The translations under genes were made by a program, and so were the position numbers. From Clostridia bacterium (GTDB lineage: Bacteria > Bacillota > DULZ01), in the NCBI GenBank assembly GCA_012840125.1, contig DULZ01000037.1:1-34861 (forward strand): a stretch of DNA of 34,861 nt, written 5' to 3'. Shown one piece after another: positions 2 to 19,772 of the stretch; the stretch's first letter is position 1, and each line of letters opens with the position of its first letter. The notes beneath the pieces were generated by a model that was given only the letters and a program-made list of their open reading frames with translations, was not told the DNA's origin and did not search any database.

Positions 2-1642
2 CAATTTCCGGAGATCAGCCGGCCGGTGGCGGATTCCTGGCTGCGGGCCCGGATGAGGGGTGTAGACCCGTACAAAGTTGTGAAGAAACCGCAATTGACT
101 GAACAGGAATTACAAGAAATCCGTCATGATAAAGAGCCCTTGATTGCGGCTACGGAAGCATTAATTAACAGGCTGAAAAACATCCTGAATGATTGTGGCT
201 ACATACTTTACCTGATTGATCCGGACGGGATTATCCTCGTGCATGAAGGTGACTGGAAAAGGAACCGTCCCTTTCCTGAATACGGGTCCAGGGTTGGGAT
301 CATCGCCAACGAGGAAACCATCGGCACCAACGCCCATGAATTGAGTATTAATTTAAAAAGGCCGGTCCAGCTGTTGGGACCGGAACATTATGCGGTAGTT
401 TTTCAAAACAATATCGCTTCCGCCGCCCCGGTGTTTGATGCAGATCGCCAAGTGGCAGGCGCTTTGTTGTTGTTGAGTAGGCCCTGCGAGGGAGAAAAGG
501 ATGGTTTTTTAACCCGCCAGTGCAAGAGTGAGCTGGCCCTGGTGGTTTCCATGGCGTCTGCTGTGGCGGCTGAAATGGTCCTCTGCCGGCCCCGGGTGAA
601 GGTGCAAACCAGCAGCATGGGGAAGGACAAATCCGTTTTGCCCGCCGTGAAGGAACGCCGGCCCGCCGGCTCCGCCGGTGCCGTGTTCAACAAAATCATC
701 GGTGAAAGCGAAGCCATCAAAAAGGCGGTGAAATTGGCCAGGAAATTTGCCCAATCCCGGGAAAACATCTTGCTGACCGGGGAAAGCGGTACGGGCAAGG
801 AGATTTTTGCGGAAGCTATTCATCAATACTATTGTCCTGACGGCCCTTTCGTGGTGGTTAACTGTGCGGCCATGCCCAGGGATTTGATCGCCAGTGAGCT
901 GTTCGGTTACGAAGGCGGTAGTTTTACGGGAGCGGAGCGAAGGGGCAGGCCGGGGAAAATTGAGCTGGCCGACGGGGGCATCTTCTTCCTGGACGAGATC
1001 GGGGACATGCCCCTGGAACTGCAGCCGGTTTTATTAAGGGTACTGGAAAACAAGCAGGTGACCAGGATCGGCGGGTGTACGGCCAAGAAAGTGGATTTCC
1101 GGTTGATTGCCGCCACGAACCAGAACCTTTACCAGATGGTGCTGGAAAACAAATTCCGGGAAGACCTCTATTACCGCTTGTCCGTGCTGAACATCCATAT
1201 CCCGCCCCTGCGCGAAAGGAAAGAAGATATCATCCTGCTGTGCGACTACTTTATTGAGGAATACTGCCAAGAAGCCGGTCGCCCCCGGCCCCAGCTCAGC
1301 CGGGAAACCGTCGAATACATTTTAGCTTACGACTGGCCCGGCAATGTACGCCAGTTGAAAAATGCCATGATCTATGCCGTGAATGTTTGCCAAGGCCAGA
1401 TCATTACGCCCCAGGACCTGCCTCAAAACATCATCCTGGATAAAGTGAGGCACCGGCTGTATCCCAGCCACTTCCCCGTGGACAGTATCGGGGAACTGCT
1501 GCAAATCAGCCATTTGGAGAAGACGGCCATCCAGACGGCTTTGACCTATACTAATCGCTGTGTGCCGGAAGCGGCGAAATTACTGGGTTTGAGCCGGTCC
1601 ACTTTGTATCGCAAAATTAAAGAGTATAATATTACTCTATAA
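2..1642 (+). CDS. Sigma-54-dependent transcriptional activator (AcoR-like), 5' partial
   Basis: Enhancer-binding activator for sigma-54 RNA polymerase. Numbering from the in-frame GTG at 26: a GAF-like sensor with an IGTNAHEL motif near 99-106 and EHY near 120-122; an AAA+ domain with Walker A GESGTGKE (252-259), loop-1 motif GSFTGA in place of the usual GAFTGA (298-303) and Walker B IFFLDEIGD (319-327); and a C-terminal Fis-type helix-turn-helix with AAKLLGLSRSTLYRKI. The frame stays open to base 2 and reads FPEISRPVADSW before the GTG. That resembles the conserved start region of AcoR-type regulators, so the true start lies left of the window. No receiver domain is visible. It converges on the corrinoid gene with a shared terminator. 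The only convincing sigma-54 promoter found is at 15977-15992, upstream of the Mo/W operon, so this is a candidate regulator of it. The effector is unknown. Confidence 0.93.
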   Translation, partial: QFPEISRPVADSWLRARMRGVDPYKVVKKPQLTEQELQEIRHDKEPLIAATEALINRLKNILNDCGYILYLIDPDGIILVHEGDWKRNRPFPEYGSRVGIIANEETIGTNAHELSINLKRPVQLLGPEHYAVVFQNNIASAAPVFDADRQVAGALLLLSRPCEGEKDGFLTRQCKSELALVVSMASAVAAEMVLCRPRVKVQTSSMGKDKSVLPAVKERRPAGSAGAVFNKIIGESEAIKKAVKLARKFAQSRENILLTGESGTGKEIFAEAIHQYYCPDGPFVVVNCAAMPRDLIASELFGYEGGSFTGAERRGRPGKIELADGGIFFLDEIGDMPLELQPVLLRVLENKQVTRIGGCTAKKVDFRLIAATNQNLYQMVLENKFREDLYYRLSVLNIHIPPLRERKEDIILLCDYFIEEYCQEAGRPRPQLSRETVEYILAYDWPGNVRQLKNAMIYAVNVCQGQIITPQDLPQNIILDKVRHRLYPSHFPVDSIGELLQISHLEKTAIQTALTYTNRCVPEAAKLLGLSRSTLYRKIKEYNITL

Positions 1643-1730: not shown

Positions 1731-2369
1731 TTAAGCGACCCAGTTTTTACAGATTTTCACACCTTCCGCCGCATTAGTGGTAAAAGCATCGGCGCCAATT
1801 TTCCGGCAGGCACTTTCCGTCACCGGGTTCCCGCCGATGATGACTTTGACCGTATCCCGCAAGCCTGCTTCTTCCAGGGCTTTCACTGTTTTCTCCATGG
1901 AATCCAGGGCGAGGGTTAACACACCGCTCATACCGACGATCTGGGGTTGGACTTCCTTAACCTTGTCTACAAAAGCCCCCGGCTTTTGATCAATGCCCAA
2001 GTCGTAAACTTCGAAACCGGCGGCTTCAGCCATGTTCCGGAAAATGTTTTTGCCGATATCGTGCAGGTCCCCCTCCACGGTGCCTAAGACAATTTTACCT
2101 ATCTTTTTCGCGTCGCTGCTGCCTAAAACGGGCTTAAGCATCTGCATCACTCTGGTCAGCAGGTCACCGGCATAAATCAAATCGGCCACATAGTATTCGC
2201 CCTGCTCGAACAAGTCCCCCACTTTGGTCATTCCCTGCTGGCAGCTGTTTACCACCAGTTGAGCCTCTTCCGGCGTGGGGTTGCCCGCCACGAACTCCCC
2301 GATCATGGCCAGCAACTGTTCCTCGTTGAGATCTCCTAAAGCTTGGACCAGGGCCTGTAAATCAATCAT
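1731..2369 (-). CDS. Methyltransferase cognate corrinoid protein (MtaC/MtbC/MttC type)
   Basis: A 212-aa cobalamin-binding methyl carrier. The N-terminal half is the helical cap (MtaC N-terminal-like). The C-terminal half is a Rossmann-type B12 domain with the lower-ligand motif DLHDIG in GTVEGDLHDIGKN, then GMSGVLTLALDSM and VIIGGNPVT, which form the nucleotide-tail pocket. An open frame extends upstream to 2477, but the ATG at 2369 follows a textbook GAGGAGG site and gives the family's normal length and start (MIDLQ). In known systems such proteins are methylated by a substrate-specific methyltransferase and demethylated by a UroD-fold MtaA-like protein. A UroD-family gene sits in the divergent operon, but no MtaB/MttB homologue is in the window. 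Expression is probably controlled from the palindromic intergenic region shared with the operon at 2707. Confidence 0.93.
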   Translation of the reverse strand: MIDLQALVQALGDLNEEQLLAMIGEFVAGNPTPEEAQLVVNSCQQGMTKVGDLFEQGEYYVADLIYAGDLLTRVMQMLKPVLGSSDAKKIGKIVLGTVEGDLHDIGKNIFRNMAEAAGFEVYDLGIDQKPGAFVDKVKEVQPQIVGMSGVLTLALDSMEKTVKALEEAGLRDTVKVIIGGNPVTESACRKIGADAFTTNAAEGVKICKNWVA

Positions 2370-2533
2370 TTGTCCCAACCTCCTCAAAAGTTTGCTCTGC
2401 CGTCCCTGTGTCATGACCCAAGCCACGGGACTTGGTATTACTATCATGGCGAGGTTACACCACCTCAACCGCATCAAACGTTACTGCTGGGGCCTCGGTT
2501 TTCAAGGGATCCCATCTTACTTATGAAGGGAGA

Positions 2534-2678
2534 TTTGTACTAATGCGAACGTTCACATTACCTGGGAAAACTTACATCCCTAGCTAGAATTTTAAACCCT
2601 CCAGCAGCTGGAGGGTTTAAAATTCTGGTTAGACAGGGAGCCCTTCCTTAATGATGTGAACGTTCACATTAGTACAAA
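2534..2678. repeat. 145-bp palindromic element with two operator-like palindromes
   Basis: The element is symmetric about base 2606. The outer arms 2534-2560 and 2652-2678 are inverted copies matching at 25 of 27 positions. The core 2587-2605 / 2607-2625 is a perfect 19-bp inverted repeat around a single A. Between them pairing is patchy, often with G-T appositions. Each outer arm contains a smaller palindrome: TGCGAACGTTCACA on the left and TGTGAACGTTCACA on the right. These have a central CpG as in LacI/GalR-family operators. It sits between the divergent corrinoid and dehydratase-like genes, so it may be a regulatory region, a transcript hairpin or a foldback/MITE insertion. No target-site duplication was evident. 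Confidence 0.8.
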
Positions 2679-2706
2679 CCATGCTGCACAAAGGAGATGA
2701 GACGCC

Positions 2707-3879
2707 TTGAAAACCGAAGACCCAGCGGCAAGGCTTGGAGCGGCTTACGAGGTGTTGGCCCGGGCTTACCGCAACCGGCATGAGCGGGCCCTTCAGTGGA
2801 AGGAACAGGGTGGACGGGTGCTGGCATGCCTGGGAAGCGATGTGCCGGAAGAGTTGGTCCTGGCCGCCGGCTACTTGCCCGTCAGGGTGTGCGGCGAACC
2901 GGGGCAGGCCACTCCCCTGGCGGACCGCTACTTGGAACTGGCTTTTGAGCCCACGGCCCGGTCCAAATTCAACCGCCTACTTGACGGTACTTATGCTTAT
3001 GCGGACGGCTTGGTAATATCCAACTCAACGGATGTGCTGGTGCGTCTTTACTTTTATCTCAGGGAACTGCATCGTGTCGAGCCGGAAATCGAACTTCCTC
3101 CTTTTTACTTCTTAGATCTACTGTTCATGCCGTCCATGATCAGCAGTGAATACAATCTGGGGACTTTAAGGAGCTTTCAGAGGATTTTGGAAGAATGGAG
3201 CGGGCAGGAAATTACTCCGGACCAATTACAGGAGGCCATCCGGTTATGTAATGAAAACAGGGCACTGCTGCGCCAATTGGCGGAGCTTCGCCGGGGAACT
3301 GCTCCGAGAGTAACCGGGGTGGAAGCCCTTACCATCATCGGTGCCTCCTTGCTCATGCCCAAAGAAGAACATAATCGCCTGCTTTGTGAAATCTTAGACA
3401 AAGCTCGCCGGCTGCCTCCTTTAGAGGGGGTCAGGCTCTTTGTTACCGGCAGCGTCCATGAGCAAACGGATTTCTATGAATTGATCGAAGCTTGCGGCGG
3501 GATTGTTGTCGGGGAAGACCATGACTGGGGTAACCGTCACTTCCATACCGATGTGGCTACCGATGTGGAGCCCCTGGCAGCCATCCGGGATCGCTATCAC
3601 CTGCGGCTGGCGTCTCCGAACAAGCACCTGGTGTCGCACCGGGTCAGGGCACTCCTGGACCAAGTGCAAGAATGCGGCGCTGAGGGAGTTGTCTTCTTCA
3701 TGCGAACCTATGATGAAGCCTCCACTTGGGATTACCCGGAGCAGCATCAAATACTGGAAAGTTTGGGGATTCCCAGCAAGTTGTTTGTCAGGCAGCCCTA
3801 CACACTGGCCAACCGCCGCCAGTTGATGGAAGACATCACGGAACTGGTAGCCCAGGTCCGGGCCGGGAGGAGGGAGTGA
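2707..3879 (+). CDS. 2-hydroxyacyl-CoA dehydratase/benzoyl-CoA reductase-like subunit lacking Fe-S cysteines
   Basis: A 390-aa protein of the HgdB/BcrB-BcrC/FldBC family. Family members form heterodimers that carry [4Fe-4S] clusters for radical dehydration of 2-hydroxyacyl-CoA or for ring reduction. The fold is recognisable from VLACLGSDVPEELVLAAGY near 38-56, an ADGLVISNSTDVLVRLY segment near 99-115 and FMRTYDEASTWDYPE near 331-345. Where active subunits have Cys in the second and third of these segments, this one has Ser107/Thr108 and Thr334/Tyr335. The first cluster Cys region (near 80-90) also lacks Cys. It probably binds no cluster and serves as a structural or substrate-binding partner of the next gene. 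The start is TTG at 2707 behind AAGGAGATGA. It ends 3 bases before the next start, so the two are translationally linked. Confidence 0.85.
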   Translation: MKTEDPAARLGAAYEVLARAYRNRHERALQWKEQGGRVLACLGSDVPEELVLAAGYLPVRVCGEPGQATPLADRYLELAFEPTARSKFNRLLDGTYAYADGLVISNSTDVLVRLYFYLRELHRVEPEIELPPFYFLDLLFMPSMISSEYNLGTLRSFQRILEEWSGQEITPDQLQEAIRLCNENRALLRQLAELRRGTAPRVTGVEALTIIGASLLMPKEEHNRLLCEILDKARRLPPLEGVRLFVTGSVHEQTDFYELIEACGGIVVGEDHDWGNRHFHTDVATDVEPLAAIRDRYHLRLASPNKHLVSHRVRALLDQVQECGAEGVVFFMRTYDEASTWDYPEQHQILESLGIPSKLFVRQPYTLANRRQLMEDITELVAQVRAGRRE

Positions 3880-3882
3880 GGT

Positions 3883-5190
3883 ATGACGGCTAAGGAAGAG
3901 GCAGGAAAAAAAGTGCCGGAAAAAGGACAGCGCAGTGTCAAAAGGCTTCAAGTTGCTAAGGAAGCCAGCGCTTATCAAAAAGAATGGTTTATGGGACTTG
4001 GTCAAAGAGTGGCTGCCGGTGAGCCCTTCGCCTACCTCAATGCCGATGTGCCCATGGAAATCTTTCGAGCCATGGACATTCCCTTTGTGGTGAACCAGTG
4101 GTGGGCGTCCATTTGTGCGGCAAAGCAAATGACACCATATTACTTTAACTTGTTGAAAGAAGAGAATTACCGGGACGACGTTTGCCAGTACTGCGTGACG
4201 GCCCTGGCCTGCTCCTTCGATCCGAAACCGGAGGAAGGGCCTTGGGGCGGGCTGCCCAAGCCCTCCATTGCGGTGACCAGGTTAACCTGCGATGCCCAGG
4301 GGAAGATTTTTGAGTTGCTGGCCAAGCGGTACGGCGCCAGTTTTTATCCCATGGAAAACACCATTCCCTTAATTGCCCCTGACAACTGGTGGGAAAAGGC
4401 CCCGTATCGCTGGGAAGAGCTGTATGAACCGCGCCGGTTGGATTTTGCCGTGGAGGACTTAAAGGGGCTGATCCGCTTCTTGGAATTGACCACCGGACGG
4501 GCATTCAGCATGACCAGGTTCGAAAAAGTGATGGACCTGATCAACCAGCAAGAGGAGTATTACCGGCTGACCCGTGATTTAATTGCCCAAACCGTCCCGG
4601 CTCCGGTCACCATCGCCGATGTGGTGGGTCCGGTGATGCAGGCCCAGTGGCAGCGGGGCACCGAATGGGCGGTGGAAAACGCCCGCAAGCTGTACCTGGA
4701 AATCAAGGATTTAGTGGACCGTGGTGCAGCCGCTTGTCCCAATGAACGGATCCGGTTGGGCTGGATCGGCAGGGGATTATGGTTTAACCTCGGGTTTTAC
4801 CAGTATTTCGAAGAAAAATACGGTGCCGTTTTCGTCTGGTCCATGTATCTTGCCATGGGAGCCGACGCATATATCCGCTACGGCGGTGACCCCCTGCGGC
4901 GGTTGGCTTCGCGGTTTATCGGCATGGAAGATTTCCTGCACATGCCGCCCTGGAACAACCAGTGGTTTTTGAAAGAAGCCAAGAACAATCAACTGGACGG
5001 AGTGGTTTACCTGGTCCCGGAAAACTGCATGCAGGCCGTCGAAGGCTCCTACTTCATTGCTAAAGCATTGGAGGATGCCGGTATCCCGGTGCTCATGCTG
5101 AGAGCGGATCCCGTGGATGCGCGCAAATGGAACCAAGCAACCATGACGGCAGCGGTGGAAAGTTTTATCAAAGAGAGACTAGGAGGGTAG
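3883..5190 (+). CDS. 2-hydroxyacyl-CoA dehydratase/benzoyl-CoA reductase-like subunit, cysteines retained
   Basis: A 435-aa partner of the preceding gene in the same family. It keeps plausible [4Fe-4S] ligands: Cys101, Cys104 and Cys110 in CQYCVTALAC, Cys136 in RLTCDAQGK, and Cys382 in VPENCMQAVEGSY. The last matches the family position that typically reads FCxxxxYxxP. The N-terminal ~30 residues are charged and look like an extra tail. The ATG at 3883 follows a purine-rich GGAGGAGGGAGTGAG inside the end of the upstream gene. Classical dehydratases need an ATP-dependent activator (HgdC/FldI type) with an ASKHA fold. None is encoded here, so it is either supplied elsewhere or the reaction differs. 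Placement directly before a family III CoA-transferase mirrors the FldABC and HadABC organisation. The substrate is unknown. Confidence 0.87.
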   Translation: MTAKEEAGKKVPEKGQRSVKRLQVAKEASAYQKEWFMGLGQRVAAGEPFAYLNADVPMEIFRAMDIPFVVNQWWASICAAKQMTPYYFNLLKEENYRDDVCQYCVTALACSFDPKPEEGPWGGLPKPSIAVTRLTCDAQGKIFELLAKRYGASFYPMENTIPLIAPDNWWEKAPYRWEELYEPRRLDFAVEDLKGLIRFLELTTGRAFSMTRFEKVMDLINQQEEYYRLTRDLIAQTVPAPVTIADVVGPVMQAQWQRGTEWAVENARKLYLEIKDLVDRGAAACPNERIRLGWIGRGLWFNLGFYQYFEEKYGAVFVWSMYLAMGADAYIRYGGDPLRRLASRFIGMEDFLHMPPWNNQWFLKEAKNNQLDGVVYLVPENCMQAVEGSYFIAKALEDAGIPVLMLRADPVDARKWNQATMTAAVESFIKERLGG

Positions 5191-5194
5191 TTGC

Positions 5195-6409
5195 ATGTCC
5201 AGGTCTGTCTTAGAAGGCATTAAAGTCCTTGATCTTACCCAGTTCGAATCCGGTACGGTGTGTACGGAAACCCTGGCTTGGATGGGAGCCGAAGTATTAA
5301 AAGTGGAGCGTCCCAGAACCGGTGAAGCCGGGCGCTATTCCGTCGAAGAGCCCGGTGTGGATACCTACGGTTTTATCATTCTCAATGCCAATAAGAAGTC
5401 CATTACTTTAAACCTCAAGAGCGAAAAAGGAAAGGAGATACTCTGGCAGCTGATCGATAAGGTGGATGTATTCATTGAAAATATGGGACCGGGATCCATT
5501 GAACGCCTGGGTTTCGGTTATGAAGCAGTGAGCCGCCGCAATCCACGCATAGTGTACGCCCAGATCAAGGGTTTCGGTACGGACGGCCCTTACCGGGATT
5601 ACCCGGCCTTTGACCCTATTGCTCAGGCTGTAGGCGGTTCAGCCAGCATGACCGGTGAACCTGACGGGCCACCCATGCAGCCGGGCCCCAACCTGGCCGA
5701 CAGCGGTGCCGGGTATTTGACGGCGTTGAGTATTGTGGGAGCCCTGTACCAGCGGTACTCTACCGGTAAAGGGCAGCATATTGAAGTGGCCATGCAAGAT
5801 GTGGTCATCGGTTTTTGTCGTTCTGCCTGGGAGCAGCATTACCGGAACAATCAGGCAGCTCCCCGGGTTGGCAATGGTATGCCCCTGGAGCCGGTGGCCC
5901 CGGCCAATATGTATCCCTGTAAACCGGGTGGTCCTAATGACTATGTCCATATCTATTGTTCACGTCATCCGGGCAGTCATCACTGGCGCACCTTGTGCAA
6001 GATCATTGGGCACCCGGAGGCTGCCGATGATCCCCGCTTTGCTACCCCACGTTCCCGCTACCTGCATCGCCATGAGATTGATGCCATGATCAGCAATTGG
6101 ACCCGCCAATATACCAAATTTGAAGCGATGGAGATTCTCGCCAAGGCCGATATTCCAGCCGGCGCTGTTTTAGATACCATGGACATTACGAATGATCCCT
6201 ATTTGCGTAAGAGAGGGATTATGGCTGAAATTGAGCACCCGCAGCGAGGTAAAATGCTCATCCCCGGTTTTGCACCAAAGATGTCCGGCAACCAGGTCCG
6301 GATTACTTGCTCACCGGGGCTGGGCGAGCATAATGAGGAGATCTACCGGGGCCTTTTAGCCATCTCCCAGGAGGAGTATCGCCGGCTTCAAGAAGAGGGA
6401 GTCATCTAA
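5195..6409 (+). CDS. Family III (CaiB/BaiF) CoA-transferase
   Basis: A 404-aa enzyme, normal for the family, that moves CoA from an acyl-CoA donor to a free carboxylate. N-terminal LEGIKVLDLTQFESGT and GAEVLKVERP are the family's CoA-binding start. The catalytic aspartate is Asp169 in GPNLADSGAG, the same number as in formyl-CoA transferase. The C-terminal region keeps the family pattern (TNDPYLRKRG, then GFAPKMSG). The ATG lies behind TAGGAGGG, only 4 bases after the previous gene. It most likely activates the acid imported by the TRAP system to the CoA thioester used by the two dehydratase-like subunits, in the manner of FldA or HadA. The exact acid cannot be inferred from sequence. Confidence 0.92.
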   Translation: MSRSVLEGIKVLDLTQFESGTVCTETLAWMGAEVLKVERPRTGEAGRYSVEEPGVDTYGFIILNANKKSITLNLKSEKGKEILWQLIDKVDVFIENMGPGSIERLGFGYEAVSRRNPRIVYAQIKGFGTDGPYRDYPAFDPIAQAVGGSASMTGEPDGPPMQPGPNLADSGAGYLTALSIVGALYQRYSTGKGQHIEVAMQDVVIGFCRSAWEQHYRNNQAAPRVGNGMPLEPVAPANMYPCKPGGPNDYVHIYCSRHPGSHHWRTLCKIIGHPEAADDPRFATPRSRYLHRHEIDAMISNWTRQYTKFEAMEILAKADIPAGAVLDTMDITNDPYLRKRGIMAEIEHPQRGKMLIPGFAPKMSGNQVRITCSPGLGEHNEEIYRGLLAISQEEYRRLQEEGVI

Positions 6410-6445
6410 GGCTTCCTGACAACCCAGGCAGGAGGGGATGCCAGC

Positions 6446-7585
6446 ATGGATACTAATCTGTATAATGCCAGGTTTGAGAGATTTCAAAAAGCCTACCATG
6501 TGGAAGTGCCGGACCGGATCCCCATCGAGGGGCAGTTTACTCCCACCTTTATGCTGGATTATTGCGGTTATTCTTTAAAGACATGGGATCCGGCCGTAGT
6601 GGACCGGGCCGTGGACCGGGTCCTCGGTGAATTCGACTATGATTACGTGCGGAGTATCTTTTACCGGTCACCTCAATATTTCATTCAACTCGGGGCGAAG
6701 ACTTTTGTGCAAAGCGAAGACGGGACAATGCAGCACCCGGATGTGCACGGGTTAGAGCCGGAGGAATACCCGGAGTTCATCGCTGATCCTTTTAAAACTA
6801 TCGTAGAAAAAATCGTGCCCCGTCTCTACACGGAATTGGCGAAACCGTATCCTTATAACGCCGTTGCTGTCGCGAAGGCAATTTATACGAACCACATGCT
6901 GCGGGAAAAATTTAAAGCCATTCAGGATAAGTACCGGGAAAAATACAGCATCCCTTATACCGGTGGGGGTATGCTGGCGGCACCCTTTGATTTCGTCGCT
7001 GATTTCATTCGCAGTTTCAGCGGCATCAGCATCGATATCCGGCGGCGGCCCGATCAAGTGGCGGCCGCTTGTGAAGCGGTGCTTCCCCTGCTAATTAAGA
7101 AAGGAATGTCCGGTCCTAACGGGATAACCAAAACGATTTCCATGCCTTTGCACATGGCTCCCTATTTAAAGGAAGCCGATTTTGAGAGATTTTACTGGCC
7201 CACGTTCAAGAAATTGTGCGATGTTATGACGGAAAATGGGTACTATCTATATATTTTCTTTGAGCAAGACTGGACCAGGTTCCTGGACTACCTGCAGGAA
7301 CTGCCCAAGGGCCGGATTTTGGCCAAGTTCGAATACGGGAATCCCAAGTTGATTAAAGAAAAATTGGGCAAGAACGTATGCATTTCAGGTTTGTACCCGG
7401 TGGAGCTGCTTAAGAACGGCACCAAACGAGAATGCATTGAAAAAGCCCAGGAGCTAATCGAGATCCTGGCTCCGGGAGGGGGATATATTTTCGGCCTCGA
7501 CAAATCGGTGATGAAAAAGAGCGACATTAATCCTGAAAACCTTAAGGCGGTTACCCAGTTTATCATTCGTGAAGGAAAGTACTAG
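6446..7585 (+). CDS. Uroporphyrinogen decarboxylase-family protein (putative corrinoid methyltransferase)
   Basis: A 379-aa TIM-barrel protein of the UroD superfamily. It resembles the MtaA/CmuA and O-demethylase branch more than haem-pathway HemE. Visible elements are an N-terminal VPDRIPIEGQ, a central ISMPLHMAPYL with a candidate zinc-ligand His, KNVCISGLYPVELL with a candidate zinc-ligand Cys, and the C-terminal PGGGYIFG turn. HemE function is unlikely because of the catabolic setting and the lack of its arginine-rich N-terminus. With the corrinoid protein divergently encoded nearby, the best inference is methyl transfer between substrate, corrinoid and tetrahydrofolate or thiol. Start ATG 6446 follows AGGAGGGG. 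It lies 36 bases after the CoA-transferase in the same operon. Confidence 0.83.
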   Translation: MDTNLYNARFERFQKAYHVEVPDRIPIEGQFTPTFMLDYCGYSLKTWDPAVVDRAVDRVLGEFDYDYVRSIFYRSPQYFIQLGAKTFVQSEDGTMQHPDVHGLEPEEYPEFIADPFKTIVEKIVPRLYTELAKPYPYNAVAVAKAIYTNHMLREKFKAIQDKYREKYSIPYTGGGMLAAPFDFVADFIRSFSGISIDIRRRPDQVAAACEAVLPLLIKKGMSGPNGITKTISMPLHMAPYLKEADFERFYWPTFKKLCDVMTENGYYLYIFFEQDWTRFLDYLQELPKGRILAKFEYGNPKLIKEKLGKNVCISGLYPVELLKNGTKRECIEKAQELIEILAPGGGYIFGLDKSVMKKSDINPENLKAVTQFIIREGKY

Positions 7586-7597
7586 GAGGCTGGGACT

Positions 7598-7744
7598 ATG
7601 AACACGAAGGAACCGGTACTGTTGTCATGGGAAGAGTTTATCGCCCAGGTGGGAGAGAAGGTGACGGATGATCCCAAAGCGCCGGAACTTTGGGAACGAG
7701 TACAGACTGATGTATTTAACTTCTTTATCTCACTTTTGATGTAG
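7598..7744 (+). CDS. Small 48-aa protein of unknown function
   Basis: A short gene in the operon between the UroD-like gene and the TRAP genes. Start ATG 7598 has a good AGGAGG at 7584-7589, and the gene ends at TAG 7742-7744. The product begins MNTKEPVLLSWEEF, is acidic in the middle (TDDPKAPELWERV) and ends in a hydrophobic FNFFISLLM tail. No domain is recognised. Good ribosome site, operon position 12 bases after the upstream stop and amphipathic composition argue that it is translated. It might be a small subunit or assembly partner of the neighbouring enzymes, but nothing in the sequence proves this. Confidence 0.6.
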   Translation: MNTKEPVLLSWEEFIAQVGEKVTDDPKAPELWERVQTDVFNFFISLLM

Positions 7745-7797
7745 ATCTAATGACCGGTCTGTCCGTGTGAGTAAATATCCCGAAAAGGAGGACCTCG

Positions 7798-8280
7798 ATG
7801 AGTAAGTTCGGCAAGTTTTATGACGGCTTAATGCGCTTTACCCTGTATTTGTCCAGTATCGGGCTGTTCTTGCTGGTGGTACTGGTGACGGCGAACACCA
7901 TTGGACGCGGCTTCCGGCATCCCATTCCCGGAGGGTATGATTTAATTACTCTTAGCGCGGCGGTATGCGGCAGCTTGTCCATAGCCTATTGCACGAAACT
8001 CAAAGGGCATGTCCATGTTGATATCGTCGTCAACGTGTTATCGCCGCGGGGTAAGAAGATACAAAAGATTATCTGCGGCATTATGGGTATTGCTCTATGG
8101 TGTCTTATTGCTTGGCAGAGTGTGAAGGTCTTCCTCACCCGGTTGACTACTGAAGTGACGGAAGTGTTGAAAATACCCTATGCCCCCTTTAGATTCCTCT
8201 TTGTGTTTTCCATGATACTCACGGTAGTGATCTTAGTTGAACAATTAATCGAAGACATGCAAGGGGGTAAAGAAGCATGA
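7798..8280 (+). CDS. dctQ: TRAP transporter small permease (DctQ)
   Basis: A 160-aa inner-membrane protein with four hydrophobic spans, typical of the small membrane subunit of tripartite ATP-independent periplasmic transporters. Family signatures are the first helix followed by NTIGRGF, the second span after GGYDLITLSAAVCGS, and KLKGHVHVDIVV before the third. It partners the large permease encoded next, with which it overlaps by 4 bases (ATGA). The ribosome site AAAAGGAGG precedes ATG 7798. These importers use an ion gradient to take up organic acids. Its place directly after the enzyme genes implies that the operon's substrate is an imported carboxylate. Confidence 0.92.
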   Translation: MSKFGKFYDGLMRFTLYLSSIGLFLLVVLVTANTIGRGFRHPIPGGYDLITLSAAVCGSLSIAYCTKLKGHVHVDIVVNVLSPRGKKIQKIICGIMGIALWCLIAWQSVKVFLTRLTTEVTEVLKIPYAPFRFLFVFSMILTVVILVEQLIEDMQGGKEA

Positions 8281-9578
8281 GTCCAGTCACTATAGGGATT
8301 ATCGGCATGATCGCCTTGATTGCCTTGATGGCATACGGCATGCCTGTAGGTTTCGCGATGGCTCTTGTCGGCTTTGTCGGCATGGCGATACTCATCAGCC
8401 CAACGGCCGCCATCACTAAACTGGCTACCACTCCTTTTGGTTATGTGGCCAGCTATGACTATGCCGTTGTACCGATGTTTATCTTAATGGCAAACATTAT
8501 TGTCGTTTCGGGACTTGGAACTAATCTATTCAATATTGCTGAAAAGTTCCTTGGTCGCTTCAACGGAGGCATGGCCATGGCCACTACCGGCGGTTGTGCA
8601 GGTTTTGCCGCCATCAGTGGTTCTTCTTTGACCACCTCCTTGACCATCGGTACTGCAGCAATCCCGGAAATGAAGAGATACAAATATGACCTGGATTTTG
8701 CCGGGGCGACGATCGCCGCCAGCGGAACCCTGGGGCTTCTCATCCCCCCCAGTACCGCCTTGATGCTCTACGGGATTGTTACCGGTAACTCCATTAAGGA
8801 TTTATTCCTGGCCGGGTATATTCCGGGTATCCAGCAGGCTTTATTCTATCTCTTGGTTATTTACCTGCTGACCAAAATCAATCCGGCTCTTGGGCCCCGT
8901 GGTCCTAAATACAGTTGGAAGGAAAAGTGGGATGCACTGAAACAAGGTGGAGAAATACTTCTCTTGATTACTTTTGTGATTTTGGGCTTGTTTATGGGGT
9001 GGTTTACGGCCACGGAAGCCGGGGCGGTCGGGACCGCCGGCGCCCTTTTGATAGTCTTGCTGCGCAAGCGGTTGACCTGGGAAGGTTTCCTGAAAGCGAT
9101 TAGCGATACGGTGAGGGTATCCGGTATGTACTATGTAATCATTATCGGTGCCCAATTGTTCATGAACTTTACAACAGTTACTACCCTACCGACCATGTTG
9201 GCCCATGGGATTCAGAATTCCGGACTGTCCCCCCTAATGGTTGTTTTCCTGATTGTGGTGATCTATCTCTTCCTCGGTATGTTTATCAACGGTACGGCGA
9301 TGATGCTTTTGACTCTGCCGATTTTCTACCCGTTAATCATAGACCTTGGCTTTAATCCCATTTGGTTTGGTGTCTTGGCTACGAGGGTAAGTGAAACGGG
9401 CCTTTTGACCCCGCCGGTTGGTTTGGGCGTTTACAGTATGAAAGCTATTATGCCGGACCTGAATCTGGCGAGAGTGTTCAAATTCACAATGTACTTTGTG
9501 GTTACCGATATCATCCATGCGATACTGCTTGTGCTCTTCCCGGGGATGGTCACATTCTTACCGGACATAGCGAGGTAA
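8277..9578 (+). CDS. dctM: TRAP transporter large permease (DctM)
   Basis: A 433-aa polytopic membrane protein, the ion-coupled transport channel of the TRAP system. It has about 12 hydrophobic segments and the DctM/GntP-like signatures VPMFILMANI, GCAGFAAISGSS, ASGTLGLLIPPSTALMLYG and TEAGAVGTAGALL. The C-terminal half repeats the same topology, with FINGTAMMLLTLPIFYPLI and TGLLTPPVGLGVY. Length and order are normal and no break is seen. It is translationally coupled to dctQ by an ATGA overlap. The solute-binding partner gene follows after 133 bases. Confidence 0.95.
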   Translation: MSPVTIGIIGMIALIALMAYGMPVGFAMALVGFVGMAILISPTAAITKLATTPFGYVASYDYAVVPMFILMANIIVVSGLGTNLFNIAEKFLGRFNGGMAMATTGGCAGFAAISGSSLTTSLTIGTAAIPEMKRYKYDLDFAGATIAASGTLGLLIPPSTALMLYGIVTGNSIKDLFLAGYIPGIQQALFYLLVIYLLTKINPALGPRGPKYSWKEKWDALKQGGEILLLITFVILGLFMGWFTATEAGAVGTAGALLIVLLRKRLTWEGFLKAISDTVRVSGMYYVIIIGAQLFMNFTTVTTLPTMLAHGIQNSGLSPLMVVFLIVVIYLFLGMFINGTAMMLLTLPIFYPLIIDLGFNPIWFGVLATRVSETGLLTPPVGLGVYSMKAIMPDLNLARVFKFTMYFVVTDIIHAILLVLFPGMVTFLPDIAR

Positions 9579-9711
9579 AGTGTCTTCCCGGGAGCCGTAG
9601 AAGGGGGTGTGAGACGGTTCCAAATGCCGCTTACTGAGTTTCCGGTTAGATAGGAGAGGGCTGGCTGGTTTGGAAAACTGACTCTAACTTTGACCAAAGG
9701 GGTGTATCACA

Positions 9712-10818
9712 GTGACAAAAGTCAGGGGTAATTGGTTGCTCACGATTATCTTAAGTGCTGTGCTCATTCTGACCGGTGTGGCTTTAGCCGGGTGTTCCGG
9801 CGGCTCCGATGGCTCTGCTGACACTTCCTCCGGTGACAATGACGCGGCGGAGCAGGAAGTGATCACGCTGACGTTTACTTCTTTCAGCACTTTGCCCCAA
9901 ACTGCTGCCAAAGTGGACCATGAGTTCATTAAACGAATTGAAGAAGTGACCAATGGTAGAGTGAAGTTCCAGTATTACGGCGGGGGCACCCTAATTAGCG
10001 GTAATGATGCTGCAGCTGAACTAGGCAGCGGGGTAGCGGATTTCGGTATCCCGCGGGTGGGATATTCTCCCCATGGTTATGATTTGAATAAAGCATATAT
10101 GACTTTTATGTTCAACTGCGATCCCTATGATGCAGAAATGGAATTGGATATTGCCCATCAAATTTTTGCACAGTACCCGCAGTTTGACCAGGAGTTCTTG
10201 GAGAATGGGATGGTCCCCTACGCCGGTAATGCCAGCGGTACTTCCCGGGCCCTGTTTACCACCAAACCGATCAAATCTTTAGATGACCTGAAAGGCGCGT
10301 CCATCCGTGCCACCGGAAACTGGGCGGAGATCGTGAAAGGATTAGGTGCCGAGCCGGTTAACATTCCTATTTCTGAAACATACTTAGCGCTGGAAAAAGG
10401 TACCGTTGACGGTGTCATCGGCCTGGCCACCTTCACCCTGGAAGCTGACAAACTGGCGGAAGTGGTCAAGTATTGTTATGACTTAAAAGTCAACTTTGCA
10501 CCGATTTATGAATGGGCCTTCTGCAAGGCCACTTGGGACAAGCTGCCCGATGACATTAAGCAGGTCTTTATTGACAACAGGGACTTCCTGGAAATGAAAT
10601 CCGTAGAAATCAACGTTGCCGATACTCTACCGGCGGAAGAGTATGCCAAGAGTTTAGGTGTGCAATTCTTAGAGCTCAGTGATGAAGACCAAGCCAAACT
10701 ATATGATGTTATTGATAAAGTGAACAGGCAGGTGGCGGCAGACCTGGACGCCAAGGGAATTCCCGGCACGGAGATTTATGAAGCAACGCAAAAGCTGATT
10801 AAGGAATACAAAAAGTAG
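9712..10818 (+). CDS. dctP: TRAP transporter solute-binding lipoprotein (DctP)
   Basis: A 368-aa extracytoplasmic binding protein. The N-terminus has basic residues, a hydrophobic core and a lipobox ending LAGC, so it should be a membrane-anchored lipoprotein as expected in a Gram-positive. The mature part follows the DctP pattern: FTSFSTLPQT, a mid-domain GASIRATGNWAEIVKGLGA, then NIPISETYLALEKGTVDGVIG, whose region in characterised members holds the carboxylate-binding arginine (here probably that of SIRATG). Start is GTG 9712 with AAAGGGG upstream. The ligand cannot be deduced, but DctP proteins nearly always bind a carboxylate. Binding proteins are commonly expressed more than the permeases, and this gene has its own 133-base leader. 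Confidence 0.93.
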   Translation: MTKVRGNWLLTIILSAVLILTGVALAGCSGGSDGSADTSSGDNDAAEQEVITLTFTSFSTLPQTAAKVDHEFIKRIEEVTNGRVKFQYYGGGTLISGNDAAAELGSGVADFGIPRVGYSPHGYDLNKAYMTFMFNCDPYDAEMELDIAHQIFAQYPQFDQEFLENGMVPYAGNASGTSRALFTTKPIKSLDDLKGASIRATGNWAEIVKGLGAEPVNIPISETYLALEKGTVDGVIGLATFTLEADKLAEVVKYCYDLKVNFAPIYEWAFCKATWDKLPDDIKQVFIDNRDFLEMKSVEINVADTLPAEEYAKSLGVQFLELSDEDQAKLYDVIDKVNRQVAADLDAKGIPGTEIYEATQKLIKEYKK

Positions 10819-10918
10819 AATTTAACTATTTCCAATCTTGGCTTTCCATGCAGTGAAATGACGGGAAGGATGGGGGCATACCAGAGGTTGGCATGAAAAC
10901 CGGAAGTGTGAATAATGA

Positions 10919-10957
10919 AGAAAAAGCCATTGATCGGTACAGATCAGTGGCTTTTTC
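10919..10957 (+). terminator. Intrinsic terminator after the TRAP operon
   Basis: A 15-bp stem with one mismatch, arms 10921-10935 and 10942-10956, a 6-base loop, A-run upstream and T-run downstream. It closes the + strand operon and, given the flanking A/T runs, could also end the opposing minus-strand operon. Confidence 0.9.
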
Positions 10958-11013: not shown

Positions 11014-12771
11014 TTATGGTTCATGCTTAGAAAAAGCTTCCGAAACAGGTTTGATACAGCCAAAAGGACAGGTTTGGGCGCAGGCGCCGCATTTGATGCA
11101 CAGCCGGTCGTCGACGAAAAAGCGGACGGTGCCCTTCCGGTTCTTTACTGCGCCGGAAGGACAGACCAAATAACAGCAGCGGCACTGTTTACATTTCCCC
11201 TGGAGAATTTCAAAACGAATGAGATCCTTGCACGCGATGGTGGGACAGTATCCCGCGGCGTGGGCGGCAAATTCTGAGCGGAAATACCGCAGCCCGGATA
11301 GAACGAGCTGCGCCGGAGAACAACCGGTGGGGCACCGGGTTTCCCGGGCCACCTGCCGGGCTATTGCTTCGATTTCTTCGAGCACTCCCCCATAGCCCTG
11401 CCCTTGGGTCAGCAGGGAGAGTTTGGTCTTTAATGCAGCGATACCTGTCTCGCAGGCAGGGCTGCCTGCACAGTACCTCGGGGTTTGCGTATTAATCGCG
11501 GCCAGAGTCCGGTCCACGATACAGCGGTGCCTGTCCAATACCACCAGCTCATGGAACATGAAGCCGGTAGTGTTGGCGCTTTTGGTGGTTTGGTTGTCAA
11601 AGGGAAGAAAGGTACCGTTAGGGAACTCCACTTGTAAAGCTTTCCAAGAGCCGGATGATTTATTGGTTATGGTTTGGACCAGCGCCGGCAAGTCTTCCTC
11701 CGCCGGCACTTCGACGAAACCGTGGCTTTTGAGGTCACCGCTTAAATAAAAAACGCGGGTATCCGGTTGCTCAGGCCCGGAGCCGGCGGCCCGGCGTACC
11801 AGCCCCGGGATGTGGGCCAGGGGCTGCAAGGGTTCCAGGGTAAGGCCGTGCGGTGCCGTCGCACCACCGGAGTGAGTTTGGTTATGGGCCACCGCTATTT
11901 CCAGACCATAATCCGTCCCCAAGATGTGGTCGCCCACCAAGCCGTATTCCCTGGCGGTGGCGATGGCCCGCTCCAGGAGGGCGGCGGCCAGGGCGTGTTT
12001 GGCGGGTATGTAAATCACTGCTTGCGAAAAGCCCAAAGCATAGCCTGTTAAGAGCAGGCTTTCCAACAAGTGGTGGGGGTTGTTTTCCACCAGGGCCAGT
12101 TCCAGGGGAGTGAGCTCTGTGGAACTGCCAACAGTCATGCATGGGGCCTCAAGAGGAGCGGGAGGCTGCCGGTCATCAAGGTTCAGCAAGGGGGAGGCGG
12201 TAATTAACTGCCGCAGCTTTTCCGGCGAGAATTGTTGTAACGCATCCCGTAGGGTAAAATACCCGCCGGTGGCGATATATTCGGCGATGTCTTGGGGATC
12301 GATGAAACCCCAGCTGTGGCTGATAGACCGCCGTTGGAGCTTGAAGAAACGAGCCAGGGAGGTTTGGCGGTCGCCGGTGATGCTTAAATCCGAGAAGCCC
12401 TGCAGCCTGCCCGGTTCTTTTTCCACTGCGGTTAACCACAGGTAAGAGGTAGGTTGATGTCCCTCCACCAGCCGGATTACGTGCCAAAGGGATTTACCGT
12501 CCACCCGGCCGAAGAAATAATGCCTCCCATCGGGCAGGCGCACATGGATTAACGGCTCGGCAAAGCAGGCGCCTAAGCAGCCTACGCCGGTTACCTTGAC
12601 AGGGAGCGCCCAGTCCCGGCGGGCGGCCAGCTTGTCGCGCAAAAGACCTGCTCCCTTGGCCAATCCGCAGGAAGAGGTGCCCACGTTAATCCTAACGGCA
12701 GAAGAGGGACATAAGCTCCGGCGACCGGTTTCCGCTAAGTGTTCCAGTATACCTGGGTTGTACTGAACCAT
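11014..12771 (-). CDS. NuoF/HymB-like iron-sulfur protein lacking the FMN/NADH site, with C-terminal 2[4Fe-4S] ferredoxin
   Basis: A 585-aa protein laid out like HndC/HymB-type NADH-binding subunits. It has an N-terminal thioredoxin-like [2Fe-2S] part (GTSSCG, then GVGCLGAC), a middle with FIDPQDIAEYIATGGYF and LLESLLLTGYALGF, the subunit-type cluster region (YCAGSPACETG, TRCPTGC, SGLRYFRSEF) and two [4Fe-4S] ferredoxin motifs (CKQCRCCYLVCP, CIKCGACAQTCP). What should be SGLRGRGGAGFPTG reads SPLLNLDDRQPPAP. The GAGAYICGEETAL segment is also absent, so FMN and NADH binding look lost while every cluster region remains. It is probably an electron relay for the Mo/W enzyme rather than an NADH dehydrogenase. 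ATG 12771 has GGAGGTTAGGTAG upstream. It is the last gene of the operon. Confidence 0.85.
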   Translation of the reverse strand: MVQYNPGILEHLAETGRRSLCPSSAVRINVGTSSCGLAKGAGLLRDKLAARRDWALPVKVTGVGCLGACFAEPLIHVRLPDGRHYFFGRVDGKSLWHVIRLVEGHQPTSYLWLTAVEKEPGRLQGFSDLSITGDRQTSLARFFKLQRRSISHSWGFIDPQDIAEYIATGGYFTLRDALQQFSPEKLRQLITASPLLNLDDRQPPAPLEAPCMTVGSSTELTPLELALVENNPHHLLESLLLTGYALGFSQAVIYIPAKHALAAALLERAIATAREYGLVGDHILGTDYGLEIAVAHNQTHSGGATAPHGLTLEPLQPLAHIPGLVRRAAGSGPEQPDTRVFYLSGDLKSHGFVEVPAEEDLPALVQTITNKSSGSWKALQVEFPNGTFLPFDNQTTKSANTTGFMFHELVVLDRHRCIVDRTLAAINTQTPRYCAGSPACETGIAALKTKLSLLTQGQGYGGVLEEIEAIARQVARETRCPTGCSPAQLVLSGLRYFRSEFAAHAAGYCPTIACKDLIRFEILQGKCKQCRCCYLVCPSGAVKNRKGTVRFFVDDRLCIKCGACAQTCPFGCIKPVSEAFSKHEP

Positions 12772-12795
12772 CTACCTAACCTCCACAAAAGAGAA

Positions 12796-12828
12796 GCCAT
12801 AATGGCTGCCCCAGGCAGCCATTATGGC
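12796..12828 (-). other. Perfect 15-bp intergenic hairpin inside the redox operon
   Basis: Arms 12796-12810 and 12814-12828 with a 3-base loop lie in the 77-base gap between the ferredoxin-subunit gene and the NuoF-like gene. There is no T-run, so it is not a standard terminator. It may protect or process the mRNA, or adjust expression of the last gene. Confidence 0.7.
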
Positions 12829-12848
12829 AAGCACCAAGGTACAGGAAT

Positions 12849-13184
12849 CTAGGGGATGAAAAGGGCCATTTTCCTTCCTTTAGCGTTCATTTTTTCAATC
12901 AGTTCTTCTACGGGACCGTACTCCATGCATTGACCGAGGCAGTGGTGGACACAGGAGGGCTTTTTCCCCTGGGCCACCCTCTCGCCGCAGAGGTCGCAGA
13001 GTGAAGTGGGAACGGGAACATAATTCCATTCCCACTTTTCATCGTCAATTTTCCAAGGCCCAACTTCCATCAACTTAATGCCCCATTTTCCTTTGGGAAT
13101 CTGCTTTTCCATTTTACAGGCTACTTCACAGCTGTGGCAGCCGGTGCAGTATTCGTAATCAATCAGCAAACCGTTTACTGACAT
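12849..13184 (-). CDS. Small ferredoxin-type electron-transfer subunit (DmsB/HybA-like, short)
   Basis: A 111-aa iron-sulfur protein with eight cysteines arranged for two [4Fe-4S] clusters: CTGCHSCEVAC near residues 13-23, then CDLC and SCVHHC in the second half. It is like the beta subunits of DMSO-reductase-family enzymes but with only one pair of clusters. It should pass electrons between the catalytic subunit, whose gene ends 48 bases upstream, and the NuoF-like protein. The open frame extends to 13232, but ATG 13184 directly follows GGAGGGAGCTCA and begins MSVNGLLIDYEYCTGC, the normal start of such subunits. No Tat signal is seen, so a cytoplasmic location is expected. Confidence 0.88.
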   Translation of the reverse strand: MSVNGLLIDYEYCTGCHSCEVACKMEKQIPKGKWGIKLMEVGPWKIDDEKWEWNYVPVPTSLCDLCGERVAQGKKPSCVHHCLGQCMEYGPVEELIEKMNAKGRKMALFIP

Positions 13185-13232
13185 TGAGCTCCCTCCATTC
13201 ATGTAGTAGTTTTCCGCCGTGGGGTGACACAC

Positions 13233-15476
13233 TTAAATGCCTTCGTCAGTTTTGGTGACTTTACAAATGACGCTCTTCAGCGGTGCGCCGAAACCGAGTT
13301 TCCCGATGTGCTTGTGCGGGACCATGGTGTTGATGTTGGATTCCCACACGCCGAACAAGCTGGGTTCTTCACCGGGTTTTTCCGGGTACCACCAGCCGTG
13401 GGTAGCATGGACCACTTTCGGGTGAATCGTGGGTGTCAGCTTGGCCTTCAGTTTTGCTTTACCGAACATGTTCTCAATGATGACCCAATCCCCGTCTTTA
13501 ATGTTGTATTGAGCGGCAGTTTCCGGGTGGATCTCCAGCTCGGGCCAGGGATCGATTTCTCTTAAGGTCGGTATTTGCCTGTGTTCTGAATGGAAGGAGG
13601 TAAACTTTCTCGCGCCGGTAGTGAGGATCAACGGGTACTCCTTCGCTAGTTCAGGTGTGCTGTACGGGCTGTAATGGGGTTCCTGGTAGTACGGCAGCGG
13701 ATCGTCGCCCCACTGTTCAAAGAGAACGGAACGCAGCTCCACTTTACCGGTGACGGTGTTAAAGCCCGGCTCCCCGTCATCTCTGAGCAAGCCTTTTTCA
13801 TATTTCCTGTATTCCACCGGGGTCTGGTAGACGCCCATTTCTCGCAAGTCGTTGAAACTAATCCCCAGCTCGGGTTCAAGTTGTTTAGTGAAGAAGTCTT
13901 CCACGCTGTCATAAGGCCACATGTGCGGGTACAGTTTCTTGCCTAATTCAATGCAGACTTCGATGTCAGACTTGGTTTCACCGACGCGCAGGGCTTCATT
14001 GATGGCCCCCAGGAAGATGGCGTTCCGGCCGAAGTGGGTGAGTACCACACCGTCCATTTCGGCGAAGGTGGGCAGCGGCAAGAACACGTCTGCAAAAGCC
14101 ATGGCGGTGGGGGTCATGAAGGTATCCTGTACCACGCAGAATTCTAATGATTGCAGTGCCCTATACCAGCGGTCCGGCTGGGTGGAGCAGGTGGGGGTGA
14201 TGAAGTTGCTGCTGTTGAACCATCCCATCCTGAGCTTGTAGGGCTTGCCGGTCTCCAGGCAATCCAGAGTCACGTCCGGGTGAGTGGTGGCCAAAGCATT
14301 GGCCAGGGCAGGATATTCCTTGGCACCGATTCTTTTCTCCCATAATTCCTCGGACAGGTTGTAACGGGTTTCAATGCGCCACTTGCCCAGCAAGGCCGCT
14401 CTGGGACCTAAGGTAATGCCGCCGGGGATATCCAGGTTGCCGGTAATGGCTACGATGGACAGGAGGGCATGTCCCAGCTGCACGCCGTTGGGGTTGGTGT
14501 CCACGGCTAATCCCCATTGAATCGGGCAAGGTTTGTTGGTAGCAATGATCCTGGCTACTTCGATGATTTTTTCTTTCGGTACCCAGGTGATTTCCGCCAC
14601 TTTTTCCGGCGGGTATTCCTGGACACGCTGCTTTAAGTCCTCGAAGCCGAAGCACCATTTGTCGACGAATTCCTTATCATAGAGTTCTTCGTTGATGATG
14701 ACATGGAGCAGGCCTAGAGCCAAAGCCGTGTCGGTGCCCGGTCTTAGCTGCAATACGTGTTCCGCCCGGCTGCCCAGCCAGGTGATTCTCGGGTCCACAT
14801 GGATGATCTTGGTGCCTCGCTTCATCATGTCGATGAGGGAGTGACCGTAGAAACCGTCGGGGTTGGACATTAAGGGGTTCTTACCCCAAACGACGATGTA
14901 TTTGGGCAACTGGTAATTGGGGTTGTCATAGCGATCCGGGAAGTGCCCGGCAAAGTCGATTTCCGGGTAGCCGGCGCCCAGGATGTAGTCGGTGATAGCA
15001 CACCTGGGGCCGTAGCAAGACCAACCGCTCAGGGGATAGCAGACGTTGGGTGTGCCCAGGGAGGCAAATCCTAACGGGTAGTAGTACAAGCAGGCTTGTC
15101 TACCGGTGCCGCCGAAAACGATAATGGATTCGGCGCCGTAGTTCTCAGTGTAATACTTGACCTTCGGAACGATAATGTCCCAGGCTTCATCCCAGGAGAT
15201 TCTTTGCCACTTATTCTCCCCGCGCTTGCCCACTCTTTTCATGGGGTAGACAATTCGCTGGGGATGGTGGACGTATTCAGGCAGCGACAAGCACCTGATG
15301 CAGAGCCGGCCTTGGCTGATGGGATGCTCTTCGTCCCCTTCGACTTTAATCAGCTTGCCGTTCTTGACATGGAGTTTCATGCCGCAGCCGACGGGGTGGT
15401 CACCCGGCGGGGACCAACCGCAGGTTCTCACGATATATTCGCCGTCAGCAATTTCCTTTTTCCATTGTTTATCCAT
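13233..15476 (-). CDS. Mo/W-bisPGD oxidoreductase, DMSO-reductase superfamily (acetylene hydratase/BamB-like)
   Basis: A 747-aa catalytic subunit carrying a bis-pyranopterin Mo or W centre and one N-terminal Fe-S cluster. The cluster motif reads Cys19-x6-Asp26-x4-Cys31-x27-Cys59, so one usual cysteine ligand is Asp26. Cys154 in GWSCYGPRC sits where the metal-ligand Cys of acetylene hydratase and similar enzymes lies. Pterin-domain segments include KNPLMSNPDGF, IIHVDPRITW and RPGTDTALALGLLHVI. The C-terminal barrel carries LILTTGARKFTSFHSEH and HPETAAQYNIKDGDWV. Length fits the superfamily. There is no Tat signal, so it is cytoplasmic. Starts at ATG 15476 behind AAGGGTGG. No molybdenum or tungsten cofactor genes are in the window. 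The reaction cannot be assigned; a hydratase, hydroxylase or ring-reduction role linked to the CoA operon is possible. Confidence 0.9.
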   Translation of the reverse strand: MDKQWKKEIADGEYIVRTCGWSPPGDHPVGCGMKLHVKNGKLIKVEGDEEHPISQGRLCIRCLSLPEYVHHPQRIVYPMKRVGKRGENKWQRISWDEAWDIIVPKVKYYTENYGAESIIVFGGTGRQACLYYYPLGFASLGTPNVCYPLSGWSCYGPRCAITDYILGAGYPEIDFAGHFPDRYDNPNYQLPKYIVVWGKNPLMSNPDGFYGHSLIDMMKRGTKIIHVDPRITWLGSRAEHVLQLRPGTDTALALGLLHVIINEELYDKEFVDKWCFGFEDLKQRVQEYPPEKVAEITWVPKEKIIEVARIIATNKPCPIQWGLAVDTNPNGVQLGHALLSIVAITGNLDIPGGITLGPRAALLGKWRIETRYNLSEELWEKRIGAKEYPALANALATTHPDVTLDCLETGKPYKLRMGWFNSSNFITPTCSTQPDRWYRALQSLEFCVVQDTFMTPTAMAFADVFLPLPTFAEMDGVVLTHFGRNAIFLGAINEALRVGETKSDIEVCIELGKKLYPHMWPYDSVEDFFTKQLEPELGISFNDLREMGVYQTPVEYRKYEKGLLRDDGEPGFNTVTGKVELRSVLFEQWGDDPLPYYQEPHYSPYSTPELAKEYPLILTTGARKFTSFHSEHRQIPTLREIDPWPELEIHPETAAQYNIKDGDWVIIENMFGKAKLKAKLTPTIHPKVVHATHGWWYPEKPGEEPSLFGVWESNINTMVPHKHIGKLGFGAPLKSVICKVTKTDEGI

Positions 15477-18653: not shown

Positions 18654-19772
<1,119 letters not shown>

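Follow-up and report, generated by a model that had tools for sequence, protein, structure and literature searches.

A Clostridia locus with a conserved HG1-HG2-CoA-transferase core and a UroD-corrinoid methyl-transfer module, and its probable working without ATP-driven activation

Gene content and the duplicated divergent promoter

We analysed a 34,861-nucleotide stretch of DNA from a Clostridia bacterium (contig DULZ01000037.1; hereafter "the window"), in which a plus-strand run of genes opens with two subunits related to the oxygen-sensitive, radical-forming 2-hydroxyacyl-coenzyme A (CoA) dehydratases (HADs) and class I benzoyl-CoA reductases (BCRs), here called HG1 and HG2, and lies divergent from a gene for a corrinoid methyl carrier (Table 1). 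Families assigned with Pfam and NCBIfam across the open reading frames (ORFs) of the window confirmed the gene content and order of the original prediction, namely two HGD-D genes, a CoA-transferase with Asp169, a UroD-family gene, a 48-amino-acid ORF and a complete tripartite ATP-independent periplasmic (TRAP) transporter comprising DctP, DctQ and DctM, with the corrinoid gene on the other strand. The prediction had also placed neither an activator nor an MtaB/MttB methyltransferase in this unit, and when genes for an archerase (the ATP-driven activator of such enzymes) or for MtaB/MttB were looked for within the operon run, none was found.

The run from HG1 to DctP is tightly packed, with successive gaps of 3, 4, 36, 12, 53, -4 and 133 nt and Shine-Dalgarno-like sequences at the gene starts; the last position of the operon is 10818. 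For the corrinoid gene, the most probable start is 2369, behind the ribosome-binding site (RBS) GAGGAGG, and not 2477. The CoA-transferase is like formyl-CoA transferase/YfdW in its fold and in Asp169 (E 9e-80), a residue that is D in 36/36 aligned sequences; it is unlike Frc in falling under the cut-off of the NCBIfam Frc model (374.6 bits against 504.2). The 48-amino-acid ORF had no relative in any compared locus, and the PDB relatives of DctP were all too distant to name its ligand.

The region that separates the corrinoid gene from HG1 contains an inverted duplication of 149 bp, whose arms are 1 nt apart and whose local alignment score of 138 compares with a maximum of 32 in 300 shuffles. 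Each arm carries the palindrome TAATGTGAACGTTCACATTA, with one mismatch, for which 100 shuffles gave no match. Its exact core, TGTGAACGTTCACA, has a single occurrence in the genome, in this divergent region, the other one-mismatch sites being the second copy and one site on another contig (C41). Most simply, these sequences would mean that a reversed copy of the operon promoter arose and has come to drive the corrinoid gene, which thus appears tied to the CoA operon because the copied promoter and the same operator are present in each arm. The adjacent sigma-54-dependent activator is a candidate regulator of the divergent region. A scan for sigma-54 promoters gave 18 weak matches in the window, against 19.0 expected by chance, and none in the divergent region; scans for sigma-70 promoters and terminators gave no more matches than shuffled sequence.

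Table 1. Genes and predicted regulatory features of the locus (positions in the window; HTH, helix-turn-helix; MT-I, methyltransferase I).
Feature	Position	Strand	Evidence or remark
Sigma-54-dependent activator, Fis-type HTH, candidate regulator	26..1642	+	PF00158, PF02954; paralogs beside other methyl/CoA catabolic loci of the genome
Corrinoid (B12-binding) methyl carrier, divergent from operon	1731..2369	-	PF02310, PF02607; DxHxxG motif
Inverted copy of HG1 promoter and first ~49 bp of HG1, upstream of corrinoid gene	2457..2605	-	
Palindromic operator, copy 1 (predicted)	2541..2560		TAATGCGAACGTTCACATTA; none in 100 shuffles
Perfect hairpin, 20-bp arms, between operator copies, centre of duplication	2586..2626		
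HG1 promoter region and gene start, partner arm	2607..2755	+	
Palindromic operator, copy 2 (predicted)	2652..2671		TGATGTGAACGTTCACATTA
HG1, beta-type HAD/BCR subunit	2707..3879	+	PF06050 (HGD-D), 182 bits
HG2, alpha-type HAD/BCR subunit	3883..5190	+	PF06050 (HGD-D)
Family III CoA-transferase, Asp169	5195..6409	+	PF02515, 366 bits; best PDB matches YfdW/Frc
Probable UroD-fold corrinoid methyltransferase (MT-I type)	6446..7585	+	PF01208
48-amino-acid ORF, good RBS	7598..7744	+	ORF list
TRAP small permease DctQ	7798..8280	+	PF04290
TRAP large permease DctM	8277..9578	+	PF06808
TRAP solute-binding protein DctP	9712..10818	+	PF03480; nearest PDB 4n6d

Conservation, residues and activator of the HG1-HG2-CoA-transferase core

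A locus scan that took one genome per species returned 50 loci with relatives of HG2, mostly at 41-76% identity. The HG1, HG2 and CoA-transferase clusters occurred in 43, 42 and 38, respectively, of the 49 loci with clustered neighbours, most often as direct neighbours in the same order. The gene order of this trio is conserved far beyond chance; a chance neighbourhood was rejected, since each gene is common to 38-43 of the 49 loci. Conserved gene order, as a check on the predicted unit, therefore held for HG1, HG2 and the CoA-transferase and failed for the UroD and corrinoid families of the window, which were missing from all 50 HG2 loci but one (L071, from Dehalococcoidia). The hosts of the trio are dozens of genomes of Clostridia, Paenibacillaceae, Spirochaetes and Chloroflexota. 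This core is missing from the two genomes of the same family and was found at high identity in one other among 399 genomes of the phylum, and this patchiness within family and phylum suggests horizontal transfer.

In HadBC, an electron from the activase arrives at the beta cluster, where it is kept between turnovers and from which it moves on to the alpha cluster (PMC11574389); the cluster ligands of BzdNO are Cys95, Cys128 and Cys380 of BzdO and Cys36, Cys73, Cys100, Cys263, Cys293 and Cys327 of BzdN (PMC11971306). In an alignment that also included MbdO and HadB, HG2 C101, C136 and C382 aligned with the three BzdO ligands and were kept in 47-48 of 50 relatives, so the three-cysteine ligand set of the HAD alpha [4Fe-4S] cluster is present in HG2. 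Read by eye, HG2 Y103 and Y322, both invariant in the alignment of relatives (A1), correspond to Tyr97 and Tyr298 of BzdO, the tyrosines that bind the oxygen of the thioester. At the position of BzdO Glu65, beside the water ligand of the cluster, where HadB and MbdO also have Glu, HG2 carries Q72; this residue is Gln in 48/48 relatives and is followed by Trp-Trp.

HG1 has E81, T108 and D336 at positions where HadC and BzdN carry Cys, and with no Cys at the HadC positions the ligands of the HAD beta-subunit [4Fe-4S] cluster are absent. All six cluster cysteines of BzdN are absent from HG1 of the window, of L116 and of 41 of the 46 aligned rows (one of the 41, L039, is a partial sequence). Four Chloroflexota copies retain the distal three cysteines only, a divergent HG1 paralog (L074:2421) retains two proximal positions, and pairs that stand near an activator (L117, L118 and the double-cubane-type L101, on contig C101) retain all six. 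A FastTree phylogeny of HG1, in which the Chloroflexota group and one deltaproteobacterial copy branch beside the remainder, is compatible with a stepwise loss of the cluster. The Chloroflexota copies at L071, L074 and L079, with just the three distal double-cubane cysteines left, look like an intermediate in such a loss.

AlphaFold models of the two subunits had a mean pLDDT (predicted local distance difference test) of 89 and 94 and were used for fold comparison only. With Foldseek, the HG2 model matched BzdO, MbdO and HadB and the HG1 model matched BzdN and HadC, including 3o3m/3o3n. The pair is like the (R)-2-hydroxyisocaproyl-CoA dehydratase system HadBC/HadA/HadI (3o3m) in the fold of both subunits, the alpha three-cysteine site and the family III CoA-transferase, but it differs in having no beta cysteines, no activator, and Gln before Trp-Trp where the catalytic position has Glu. 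Nearest by sequence are the class I BCRs BzdNO/MbdON (8s02, 9g87; PMC11971306), HG1 matching BzdN (E 2.3e-42) and HG2 matching MbdO/BzdO; the thioester-binding tyrosines are shared with BzdNO, whereas the [8Fe-9S] ligands of BzdN, Glu65 of BzdO and an activator of the BzdPQ type are all lacking in the window. Because two defining features each of HADs (beta cluster, activator) and of class I BCRs (BzdN ligands, Glu65) are absent, we place the pair as a variant of the superfamily, within which the trio forms, as judged from its sequences, a distinct branch. Our search of the open-access literature found no paper on this branch or on the gene combination.

No archerase homolog was found in the 50 HG2 loci, several of which are short contigs. 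In whole genomes, the TIGR00241 profile gave no match in Paenibacillus fonticola or in a Spirochaetales metagenome-assembled genome (MAG), and in Cohnella caldifontis no archerase scored over the cut-off, just a 21-bit TIGR00241 fragment in a long frame. These three genomes (G063, G072 and G067, two isolates and one MAG that may be incomplete) have HG1 and HG2 as their sole HGD-D proteins; in G061, G062 and G064, which have classical pairs, an archerase adjoins them. For the isolates without an archerase, a role for one in trans is excluded. Because the relay cysteines of HG1 are lost, all 50 loci are activator-free and three host genomes are archerase-free, the branch probably works without ATP-driven reductive activation, in support of the variant, activator-free chemistry that had been proposed for the locus.

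The neighbours of the trio vary, and comprise CapA-like proteins (14 loci), PucR-type regulators (11), oligopeptide ATP-binding cassette transporters (about 10), a glycyl radical enzyme with its activase (8), the carriers MatC (7) and CitMHS (6), TRAP (6) and another UroD-like family (5). TRAP genes also stand beside HG1-HG2 in Spirochaetales, with a DctM 57% identical to that of the window. The CapA/PGA_cap-like proteins (family c3; L050, L038, L034 and others) have a weak likeness to the lasso peptide epimerase MslH and might act in the pathway as epimerases or hydrolases. For the second UroD-like family (c16), near some loci, no PDB relative and no corrinoid partner was found. At L034, L035, L045, L047 and L080, the glycyl radical enzyme, its activase and a MatC-like carrier lie upstream of the trio. 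Glycyl radical enzymes usually have the motif GCxE at the active-site cysteine, which at these five loci reads GCLDL; the enzyme matches the glycerol dehydratase/choline lyase group, a match that does not name its substrate, and is likely an uncharacterised one.

The UroD-corrinoid module and methyl disposal

The sole PDB match of the UroD protein was CdmB (9rui, E 4.6e-33), which relates it to a proven MT-I of the UroD fold: CdmB transfers a methyl group to its corrinoid protein (PMC13222342). The UroD protein is probably itself the substrate methyltransferase, an MT-I of the CdmB/MtvB type, so that a separate MtaB/MttB would not be needed. The window resembles the CdmBCA chloromethane methyltransferase and the MtvB-type O-demethylases in having a probable UroD-fold MT-I beside the gene of a corrinoid protein that may be its partner, but its locus has no methyltransferase II (MT-II); in place of one, the operon carries a CoA module with a TRAP importer. 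Relatives of the UroD protein in the same phylum (41-46% identity) adjoin a corrinoid protein 66-74% identical to that of the window, and most of their loci add an MT-II homolog (PRK07535 type), a second corrinoid protein, a GntR regulator and a RACo activator; outside this locus, the UroD-corrinoid module is thus part of operons that are complete for methyl transfer.

In the window, the corrinoid carrier adjoins the CoA operon, and the homologs of MT-II and RACo lie outside the locus. Six MT-II homologs were found in the whole genome (best 41% identity), and one contig (C61) carries carbon monoxide dehydrogenase/acetyl-CoA synthase, read by eye from the sequence, with RACo and an MT-II homolog. 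As the genome encodes all of these, methyl groups could enter the Wood-Ljungdahl pathway. At another locus of the genome (L093, on contig C93), acyl-CoA dehydrogenases, electron-transfer flavoprotein, a CoA-ligase and a CoA-transferase are encoded next to a second UroD with two corrinoid proteins and a homolog of MT-II, and two proteins related to the sigma-54 activator of the window (43% and 55%) are found there as well.

At L071, the genes run HG1, two CoA-transferases, HG2, a CapA-like gene, TRAP, a corrinoid-domain fragment and UroD, a combination that would be an independent recurrence of the parts of the window and is supportive of their association, not proof of it. The joining of a dehydratase-like core to corrinoid methyl transfer, on which the original prediction turned, thus finds support in the window, from the duplicated promoter and shared operator, and is not a general feature of the module, being seen at one of 50 loci, in Chloroflexota. 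Paenibacillaceae with the HG module have one UroD-family protein only, presumably HemE.

Proposed route and its alternatives

We hold with moderate confidence that the locus is a catabolic unit of two separately conserved modules, the core of which works without an archerase, probably by a non-reductive elimination. The TRAP system would import a methylated (O- or N-methyl) carboxylic acid, a methylated or methoxylated acid being a plausible substrate class. The UroD-fold methyltransferase would transfer the methyl group to the corrinoid carrier, from which it would pass through a remote methyltransferase to the Wood-Ljungdahl pathway; the CoA-transferase would form the CoA ester, and HG1-HG2 would carry out a non-reductive, [4Fe-4S]-assisted elimination or lyase step on the acyl-CoA. 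HG2 is predicted to hold a three-cysteine [4Fe-4S] cluster in the acyl-CoA pocket, where the cluster would likely act as a Lewis acid in removing a hydroxyl or similar group, and HG1 would be its cluster-free partner, the route from activase to beta cluster to alpha cluster being gone. Rather more tentatively, we propose that a widespread third HAD/BCR branch shed its relay cluster, proximal ligands first, along with its activator, became non-reductive, and was rewired here to a corrinoid demethylase by the inverted promoter duplication, which would give a methylated acid a route of demethylation followed by dehydration. That proximal ligands went first is suggested by the four Chloroflexota copies, which keep distal cysteines.

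Several observations weigh against the proposed route. HG2 C104, an additional Cys conserved in 47/50 relatives, might be a fourth ligand that closes the open site, and as such could alter the Lewis-acid reading of the HG2 cluster. No dedicated MT-II or RACo gene was found in the window, their homologs being elsewhere in the genome only. At L071, the corrinoid protein is a C-terminal fragment only, and the UroD gene reaches the end of its contig. An HgdC-type activator, when looked for elsewhere in the window's genome, as had been advised, was found in the form of two full archerases (one on C101, beside the double-cubane-type reductase, and one on C29) and one contig-end fragment, and these might serve HG1-HG2 in trans. 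Finally, a RACo-like [2Fe-2S] ASKHA protein lies directly after HG2 at L048 (11472-13172), where it is a possible alternative electron donor.

These archerases and the L048 protein would fit an enzyme that is still a reductively started radical enzyme, in which a remote archerase, a ferredoxin or a protein of the RACo type supplies HG2 with its electron and no beta cluster takes part; so would the three distal cysteines of the Chloroflexota copies. We nevertheless regard this as unlikely, as no archerase exceeds the cut-off in three host genomes, no activator is adjacent at the 50 loci, and activase electrons enter, and are stored at, the very beta cluster that would be missing (PMC11574389). 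Less likely still, in our judgement, is that the UroD and corrinoid genes merely share a neighbourhood with the CoA core and are functionally unrelated to it. That nearly all relatives of the core are without them, that the UroD-corrinoid pair is found without the core, and that UroD-family genes reach 28 per genome in these bacteria all agree with such a coincidence; the position of UroD inside a tightly spaced operon, the placing of the corrinoid gene after a duplicate operon promoter that bears the shared operator, and the similar combination at L071 do not. An ordinary 2-hydroxyacid fermentation operon of the FldABC/HadABC type with a merely remote activator, although it has like kinds of genes (a family III CoA-transferase and two HGD-D subunits), was rejected as highly improbable, because all beta-cluster cysteines are lost, the catalytic Glu is replaced by Gln and host genomes are archerase-free.

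Since HADs, with their dehydration of 2-hydroxyacyl-CoA by way of a ketyl radical, and BCRs are textbook examples of ATP-driven radical catalysis, a branch with neither the electron entry site nor the activator would, if the activation-free reading is true, show that the scaffold is capable of other chemistry. The hosts of this branch include gut Lachnospiraceae, Paenibacillaceae, Spirochaetes and Chloroflexota, and many of its proteins have probably been mistaken for 2-hydroxyacyl-CoA dehydratases. In the duplicated promoter, the wiring of a corrinoid gene into a CoA pathway would still be readable from the sequence.

Elsewhere in the window, a tRNA-Sec gene (16234-16326) lies near the genes (11014-15476) of a molybdopterin oxidoreductase that has subunits like NuoF and ferredoxin, a DNA adenine-type methylase carrying a RAMA domain is encoded at 18654-19751, and the start of a group II intron (RF02001) is present at 34822-34861, where it is cut by the window end.

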